A stretch of DNA of 64,000 bases from Elusimicrobiota bacterium (GTDB lineage: Bacteria > Elusimicrobiota > Elusimicrobia > UBA1565 > UBA9628). Where the stretch lies: positions 62,001 to 126,000 of the forward strand of contig JAPLKL010000075.1 of NCBI GenBank assembly GCA_026388095.1, read 5' to 3'. This document shows, in pieces, positions 9,700 through 14,418 of the stretch. Position numbers and translations under genes: made by a program. The notes beneath the pieces are model-generated. The model saw only the letters and a list, made by a program, of their open reading frames with translations. It was not told the origin of the DNA and ran no database searches. The stretch's first letter is position 1; every line of letters starts with the position of its first letter.

Positions 9700-9960
9700 T
9701 TGACTAATCCTGATATCCGGTTATACTCACTGAGTCGGGCGTTCGTGCGCATGTCCTGAGTCCGGCGTCGTCGACGTGGTCGGTAGCGAGAAGCGAGTTC
9801 GGCGGATCGTGCGTCGCGTTCGTGGCCGGTGCCGCATCGGACCGTGCGTAAGCAGGCGTTCGTCGCAGTCGCGGTGTGTGCCGGACTCAGGACCAGGTCG
9901 TATACTCTGGGGCGCCCAGGCAGTCGATAGAACGACGCTTGCCTGGGCGCCTCGCTCTTT
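9700..9960 (+). ncRNA. Putative structured small RNA, copy 1
   Basis: A promoter (TTGACT 9700-9705, 16-nt spacer, TATACT 9722-9727) predicts a start near 9734. A 14-bp perfect long-range stem pairs GTCCTGAGTCCGGC (9753-9766) with its complement at 9880-9893. A 12-bp terminator stem follows: GGCGCCCAGGCA 9911-9922 with 9940-9951, an inner GTCG/CGAC stem, then TCGCTCTTT. A homologous unit lies at 13931-14190. In the terminator stem the C-G pair here is an A-T pair in the other copy, so pairing is conserved while the sequence changes. No coding frame is shared. The family is not recognised. The U tract touches the stop codon of the convergent gene. Confidence 0.8.
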
Positions 9961-10684
9961 ATGGGCCGCCGGGGGTCTCCACCTCGGCCAGCAGCCTCTT
10001 GAGCGACAGAAGGTCCTGGCCCAGCTTCCCCGCGCAGGCCGAGAGCGCCGTGTTCCAGGCCGCCCGCGCCGCGCCTTTCAGACCCTGGCGATACAAGGCC
10101 ATGCCCCGGCCGATCTGGGCCAGCCCCGCCGACGAGCCGAAGTGGTCCACCCCGGCGAATTCCTGGGCGGCCATGTCCGGAGAGCCGTCCAGGAGCCGGA
10201 TGGCTCCGCGGACCACCGGGGTATGTTGGAAGCTGACTGCCACCCCGGCGGCGTCCTTTGATCCGTTGGCCGCCATCTCGGCGAAGAGCAGCAGCAGCAG
10301 CAGCTTCAGGAAATGCGCCTCGACGTCCTGGGCGACGCAGTCGGCCGCGCGGCCCCAGGACTCCATCGTCTGCGTGAGCCGGTCCTGGTCCTGCCCGGAG
10401 AGCAAGGCGACGATCCGGGCGAAATGGGCCTCGAAGAGGTCGGGCTTGGCCGCGATCGCCGCGTCAGCGTCCTTCAGGGCTCCGGGGACATCCCGCTTCA
10501 TCCGCTTGAGCAGACTGCGGTAGGCCAGGGCCTTGGCCTTGGTCTGCGGGCAGCGGGCGGCCTGGTCCAGGGCGGAGGCCGCTTCAGCGATCCGCCGCTG
10601 CCACAGCTTGGTCCGCCCCTCCCGGACCAGGCGCTCGGCGGCCTCGGCGTCCGGCGGCTTCATGAAGAGGTCGAGGATGCCCAT
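9959..10684 (-). CDS. TPR-like cytoplasmic protein
   Basis: The 241-residue product has no signal peptide and consists of helical pairs resembling tetratricopeptide repeats, for example LVREGRTKLWQRRIAEAASALDQAARC, then ALKDADAAIAAKPDLFEAHF and MALYRQGLKGAARAAWNTAL. It is probably a protein-interaction module, and no catalytic residues are evident. The -10 hexamer TAGGAT (10696-10691, minus) ends 6 nt before the ATG, suggesting a leaderless transcript. It is divergent from the CDF transporter, 77 bp apart, and convergent with the small RNA. Confidence 0.65.
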   Translation of the reverse strand: MGILDLFMKPPDAEAAERLVREGRTKLWQRRIAEAASALDQAARCPQTKAKALAYRSLLKRMKRDVPGALKDADAAIAAKPDLFEAHFARIVALLSGQDQDRLTQTMESWGRAADCVAQDVEAHFLKLLLLLLFAEMAANGSKDAAGVAVSFQHTPVVRGAIRLLDGSPDMAAQEFAGVDHFGSSAGLAQIGRGMALYRQGLKGAARAAWNTALSACAGKLGQDLLSLKRLLAEVETPGGP

Positions 10685-13930: not shown

Positions 13931-14190
13931 TTGACGAATCGCGGTATCCGGCTATACTCCTTGAGTCGGACGTTCGTGTGCCTGTCCTGAGTCCGGTGTC
14001 GTCGAAGTGGTCGGTAACGAGAAGTGGTTCAACGGACCGTACGCCGAGGTCGTGGCCGTCGCCGCATCGGGCCGTGCGTAAGTCGCCGTTGCAGTCGCGG
14101 TGCGTTCCGGACTCAGGACGGGTCGTCCGGCAGACTCTGAGGCGCCAAGGCAGTCGATAGAACGACGCTTGCCTTGGCGCCTCACTTTGT
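13931..14190 (+). ncRNA. Putative structured small RNA, copy 2
   Basis: This has the same architecture as 9700-9960. TTGACG (13931-13936), a 16-nt spacer and TATACT (13953-13958) make the promoter. A 13-bp stem pairs GTCCTGAGTCCGG (13984-13996) with 14107-14119. The terminator stem GGCGCCAAGGCA (14141-14152) pairs with 14170-14181 and is followed by TCACTTTGT. The terminator loop (GTCGATAGAACGAC) is identical to copy 1, while the stem carries a compensatory pair. Overall identity is roughly 80% by eye. It occupies the gap after the Ntn hydrolase. Confidence 0.8.
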
Positions 14191-14254
14191 CATAGGCCTT
14201 TAGACCCAGAGCCCGCTTCCCCCCATGGCCCTGGGGCCGGACCCGGCCCCGCCC

Positions 14255-14418
14255 TATACTGAACATGAAGGGCATCACCCTCCTACCCGAGCGGCACCTT
14301 CCGACATCGTTCCGGAAGAGTCCCGCAAGGGATCCCGGGTGACAGCCGAGCCGAAGAGGACGCCCCTCCAAGGCTTAACGAATAGTCCGCCTCCAGACTC
14401 AGGGAGGCGGACTTTTTT
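14255..14418 (+). ncRNA. Possible short transcript ending at an intrinsic terminator
   Basis: TATACT at 14255-14260 and a perfect terminator at 14385-14418 bracket about 155 nt. The terminator is a 10-bp stem GTCCGCCTCC/GGAGGCGGAC with an 8-nt loop and then T6. No convincing -35 is present. The interval holds only a 25-codon frame (ATG 14265). It could be a small RNA, a leader peptide, or only a terminator for the upstream small RNA. The T6 points rightward, so it does not serve the convergent SUMF1-like gene. Confidence 0.35.
14385..14418 (+). terminator. Strong intrinsic terminator
   Basis: A 10-bp perfect GC-rich stem (14385-14394 with 14403-14412) has loop AGACTCAG and is followed by six T. 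It points rightward and overlaps the last codons of the convergent SUMF1-like gene. Confidence 0.75.

Follow-up and report, generated by a model that had tools for sequence, protein, structure and literature searches.

Structure of the second unit and comparison with the first

Two similar units lie in the window, the whole stretch of 64,000 nucleotides of Elusimicrobiota DNA that was analysed. The original prediction took the second of them, at 13931-14190, to be a further copy of a small-RNA gene found about 4 kb away in the same orientation, raising the questions of whether it is a genuine RNA gene, whether the pair arose by local duplication and what such an RNA may do. The features of the two units are as follows.

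Copy 2
13931-14190, + strand: complete stand-alone transcription unit
13931-13958, + strand: promoter, with -35 TTGACG (13931-13936), a 16-bp spacer and -10 TATACT (13953-13958)
about 13964-13965, + strand: predicted transcription start
13965-13972, + strand: 5' arm of the outer stem P1, GUCGGACG, partner of 14124-14131
13981-13996, + strand: 5' arm of the long-range stem P2, CCUGUCCUGAGUCCGG
13997-14106, + strand: variable domain, GUCG/GUGG-rich, 81-191 nt among homologues
14107-14122, + strand: 3' arm of P2, CCGGACUCAGGACGGG
14124-14131, + strand: 3' arm of P1, CGUCCGGC
14139-14183, + strand: terminal hairpin, a 13-bp stem with the N1-N3 pair and a GC bulge; the family-defining core
inside 14139-14183, + strand: apical hairpin GUCG-AUAGAA-CGAC
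14184-14190, + strand: U-rich tail ACUUUGU of the intrinsic-terminator-like hairpin, read from sequence

Copy 1
9700-9961, + strand: unit
9700-9727, + strand: promoter, with TTGACT (9700-9705), a 16-bp spacer and TATACT (9722-9727)
9734-9961, + strand: RNA, with P2 arms at 9753-9765 and 9881-9893 and terminal hairpin at 9909-9953

The predicted RNA of copy 2 is ~226 nt long and folds as a rod followed by the terminal hairpin; its 16-bp long-range stem is extended by the 8-bp outer stem, and both enclose a fast-evolving domain. Fold energies compared with dinucleotide shuffles gave z scores of -5.3 for copy 2 and -3.9 for copy 1. The outer stem is intact in copy 2 (-14.8 kcal/mol) and weak in copy 1 (-7.1 kcal/mol), so that the stems of the second copy, whose failure to form would have told against its being an RNA gene, are well able to do so.

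Both units are present as predicted, on the + strand and 4,231 nt apart. They share 82% identity across the unit, and the expectation that promoter, long-range stem and terminator would be kept and internal regions would vary more was borne out: both P2 arms are 100% identical in a 13-nt core, the terminal hairpin is 93% identical and the promoter 79%, against 79% for the variable domain and 60% for the linker (the leader is at 84%). Furthermore, the differences within the terminal hairpin are compensatory (GGCGCCAAGGCA/TGCCTTGGCGCC in one copy, GGCGCCCAGGCA/TGCCTGGGCGCC in the other). The 200-nt flanks of the two copies are only 49% identical, which amounts to no homology beyond the unit borders. 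Judged on its sequence features, 13931-14190 is close to certain to be a real structured small-RNA gene belonging to a multi-copy family.

The terminal hairpin as the core of the family

No part but the hairpin is present in every copy, short copies consisting of the promoter and the hairpin alone; this short form is the only one in genus g3 (G008), and six genomes of genus g1 retain it. More distant members were reached with an initial covariance model (R1), and 25 hairpins then went into a second one (R2). In the R2 structure 98.2% of cells hold standard pairs, double-sided changes occur in 11 of the 18 pairs, and the covariation score of the hairpin was reached by no shuffle. The core reads N1-GUC-S, a loop of 6-8, S-GAC and then G-N-N3, in which the N1-N3 pair is always GC (13 sequences) or AU (12) and the fourth apical position pairs as GC or CG. 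Copy 2 matches R2 with 73.5 bits (E 7.6e-14) and copy 1 with 74.5 bits, both also being rows of the model; copy 2 is a member of the family, with the core N1-GUCS-loop-SGAC-G-N-N3 and the upstream sequence GGYCTTGAC-N-TATACT both in place.

The letters of the loop differ between genera (AUAGAA, AUUGAA, ACUGGAA, AAUUAAG, CCUAGU and GAUUAAAA), while the GUC/GAC apical helix, the bulge and the N1-N3 pair are kept. Such a pattern suggests recognition by structure and not a seed.

Long-range stems and variable domain

With the arms aligned by hand, P2 shows compensatory changes in 9 of its 16 pairs across genera g1, g9 and g11. For P1, 499 of 500 shuffles showed better pairing of an arm with its own partner than with a swapped one. 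An inner helix, P4, gave own partners that were no better than swapped ones (172/300) and is not claimed. The variable domain evolves fast, with single-base indels between copies; a coding function was rejected, as the frames are interrupted by stops and by these indels. In one long copy (L054, genome g1_G001c, from the start to about 170) the leader is enlarged by ~100 nt through repeats of the GTTCGTCGCC/GTTCGTCCGTCGCC type between promoter and P2.

Promoter and transcription unit

Sigma-70-type promoters resembling GGYCTTGAC-N-TATACT were sought on the same strand within 345 nt upstream of each hairpin and were found for 40 of 41 hairpins, compared with 5 of 605 control tiles. Conservation is 97-100% in TTGAC (preset in the search pattern) and in TATACT, and 35-65% at most spacer positions. 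The hairpins of g9 and of families f2 and f3 had been found by the covariance model alone, the promoter playing no part in their detection. Conservation of the promoter and the terminator speaks for transcription of copy 2.

The neighbour on the right usually runs in the convergent direction, and in many cases its end lies inside the terminator hairpin. This speaks against the units being leaders, and a cis-leader or riboswitch was rejected. The same arrangement would suit a strong promoter and a strong bidirectional terminator that merely part convergent genes and release a functionless RNA, and the model does score the hairpin on both strands. However, this reading leaves the conserved promoter, the compensation in the long-range stems and the conserved bulge unexplained, and strong model matches are confined to these units (6 per 4.6 Mb) with none at other gene ends; it is very unlikely.

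Matches to the promoter alone, found by blast in g9 and g12, precede sequences that by eye resemble c-di-GMP-I-type riboswitches, so that the promoter is general in the family. Examples in which a strong promoter of the same type precedes a c-di-GMP-I (GEMM)-like RNA, again judged by eye, are L039, L056 (G017) and L045 (G036), around the match at 1501.

Copies in the genome

A search of the window's own assembly returned five long copies (C75:75914, which is copy 2; C75:71683, which is copy 1; C74:51147; C63:122940; and C75:36216). A sixth, C75:36142, is a short copy whose hairpin comes straight after the promoter. The two copies originally described are thus both real, but they are part of a larger set.

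The block between the window copies encodes a cation efflux protein (PF01545), a WD40 protein and a C45 Ntn-type hydrolase (NF040521), and had been thought to be bracketed by a duplication. This was not upheld. Copy 2 shares more with the C74 copy on another contig (91%) than with copy 1 (82%), a unit at the corresponding position in another species (G001) has a right flank 86% identical over 204 nt, and the sequences around copies 1 and 2 show no relation to each other. Local duplication alone therefore does not explain the pair in the window; sisterhood of copies 1 and 2 was not formally rejected (AU p = 0.145) on a short alignment and tree. In named genomes, a gene-neighbour search that started from the C45 hydrolase returned nothing.

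Distribution and the mutL site

All sequences used are MAGs. R2 matched 30 of 340 Elusimicrobiota genomes, all within the order of the window: all seven g1 genomes, most of g9 (usually with one copy each), g3, g11 and g12, and in addition one genome of f2 and one of f3. When one genome of each GTDB species was scanned, the class-1 hairpin with an outer stem was seen only in Elusimicrobia MAGs. Pattern matches in Cryosericum, Mesorhizobium and others were set aside, having no outer stem and looking like coding sequence, as was a match on one viral contig of the same coding-like kind, likewise with no outer stem.

The left neighbour is the DNA-repair gene mutL in g1 (short form), g3, g12, several g9 genomes and G054 of f2, and mutL is preceded there by a gene of the size and position of mutS. 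The gap between the mutL match and the hairpin measures 69 bp in G008, 78 in G002, 105 in G017, 149 in G054, 158 in G003, 236 in G020, 276 in G040, 289 in G014 and 472 in G000; elsewhere it reaches about 10 kb on the same strand, and in G046 of f3 the unit lies 1.8 kb from mutL in the opposite orientation. Unfiltered use of R2 on the regions downstream of mutL added weak members in genera g13 and g14 of f2 (E 0.04-0.14), 560-680 bp after mutL and with a promoter or promoter-like sequence. In g2, g4, g5, g7 and g8 the readable part of the 1.5 kb that follow mutL showed no such promoter. Some genera of the family are without the RNA, which must therefore be dispensable there.

In G053 (L220; f2, g14) the unit after mutL has a promoter-like sequence and a conserved CCGCCGAGTAGGTG motif and terminates in a plain hairpin; it has no bulged core and is possibly a core-less derivative.

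In g1 one long copy has recA as its divergent neighbour and an M16 peptidase as its convergent one; the flank of this copy is also kept in G003. In several g9 genomes the gene convergent with the RNA encodes an S41 peptidase; that of G031 (L176, 2-2110) strongly matches the NCBIfam model of chlamydial CPAF (E 1e-169).

From these positions, the ancestral site is placed immediately after mutL in f1 and f2, two families, and the history of the RNA is read as vertical inheritance with expansion in g1 rather than as that of a spreading repeat. A mobile cassette of the MITE or REP type spreading in g1 would account for paralogues at unrelated sites and for homology that stops at the unit borders. 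It would not account for a position kept next to mutL in different genera and families and, within g1, next to recA and the M16 peptidase, for the single copy of most g9 genomes or for the compensatory evolution, and such a cassette is the least probable of the explanations considered.

Known families and partner proteins

The RNA family is previously uncatalogued. No family of Rfam 15 matched at the gathering threshold, nor did any at a permissive E; the best chance match over the copy 2 unit was P4, with 14.1 bits on the other strand where 37 are needed. The literature search, whose scope left out subscription journals, found no paper on an Elusimicrobia RNA of this kind. Hfq was found in 0 of 56 genomes of the order, with five control genomes positive. 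Clear matches to CsrA and to ProQ came from G007 alone (L227, L229), where they may represent a real gain or contaminating contigs, and TROVE was seen in G052 alone; the RNA is absent from both genomes. Copy 2 failed the tests for membership of the 6S, Hfq-dependent, CsrB-type, ProQ-dependent and Y RNA classes.

Like LhrC of Listeria (PMC4132741) and other sibling sRNAs (PMC4211561), the family has several stand-alone paralogues per genome, each with its own promoter and terminator, and to this extent the likeness to sibling sRNAs that had been proposed holds. It differs from them in occurring in an order with no detected Hfq, in the conservation of a bulged terminator-like hairpin and in its hairpin-only short forms; since Hfq was not found, a mechanism of the OmrA/B or Qrr kind cannot simply be assumed. 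The paralogues might still be Hfq-independent siblings, in which the loop or the variable domain pairs with mRNAs and the copies differ in their targets, as their divergence and the fast change of the variable domain would allow. Such pairing is, however, rather unlikely. Neither Hfq nor ProQ is found in genomes carrying the RNA, the short forms have no variable domain, the loop letters differ between genera, and few stretches are exposed. The best of these, the main hairpin loop AUAGAA, has the same letters in both window copies, and the suggested division of labour is unsupported.

A regulator of RNA polymerase resembling 6S RNA (RF00013) would be expected as a long rod expressed from a strong promoter, and the family does share with 6S a rod-like form of about 200 nt, here with a closing stem. 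RF00013 itself was not found in 41 relatives, which would speak for such a role, but the model is weak for distant 6S RNAs and detected 6S in only 5 of 14 control genomes. A conserved central open bubble was not seen, the family is multi-copy with no Rfam match, the conserved part is an extra, separate terminal hairpin, and the short forms have no rod, all of which makes a 6S-like role highly improbable.

Two further systems offer partial parallels. The sequestering RNAs of the CsrB/CsrC type (for their duplication, PMC6262261) are similarly multi-copy and bind protein through conserved hairpins, as is likely here, but the carriers of the present RNA have no detected CsrA and each RNA has one conserved hairpin with no conserved GGA loop. 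Bacterial Y RNA, the partner of Ro60 (TROVE), is likewise a structured RNA closed by a long stem, but the single genome with a TROVE protein is one from which the RNA is absent.

A putative protein-binding RNA

The preferred explanation, held with about as much confidence as doubt, is that of a vertically inherited RNA acting in trans, whose bulged hairpin would be bound by protein and which would serve as a decoy or scaffold. The RNA would be transcribed from its own promoter; the hairpin would be recognised by a putative protein other than Hfq, CsrA, ProQ or Ro60; the several copies may set dosage, and the rod may modulate stability or timing. A decoy or scaffold is favoured over its rivals because the hairpin is the sole shared element, its loop is variable and Hfq, CsrA, ProQ and TROVE were not found together with the RNA. 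Taken by itself, the bulged hairpin is probably a protein-binding module. Alternatively, the conserved apical element may be there only for termination or for the stability of the RNA. A more specific form of the decoy or scaffold, in which the hairpin docks an Elusimicrobiota RNA-binding protein that replaces Hfq, ProQ or CsrA, the hairpin-only copies are titrating decoys and the origin lies at the mutSL loci (in g1 also recA), is tentative and, as a whole, unlikely.

The family adds a covariation-supported RNA to a phylum in which searches found no described small RNA, in organisms with none of the known sRNA partner proteins detected. The family's core, a bulged terminator-like hairpin, occurs alone as a predicted transcript of ~55 nt or with exchangeable 5' domains. 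The compact hairpin offers a bait with which to seek the missing RNA-binding protein, and the covariance model is ready for Rfam.

A second candidate RNA downstream

Directly downstream of copy 2, at 14260-14416 on the + strand of the window, lies a second, unrelated candidate small RNA (fold z -5.8), with TATACT near 14254 and a terminator AGTCCGCCTCC..GGAGGCGGACT-TTTTTT at about 14384-14415. It has no match in Rfam; matches to it were found in six g1 genomes and in G017, and its own genome carries two copies.
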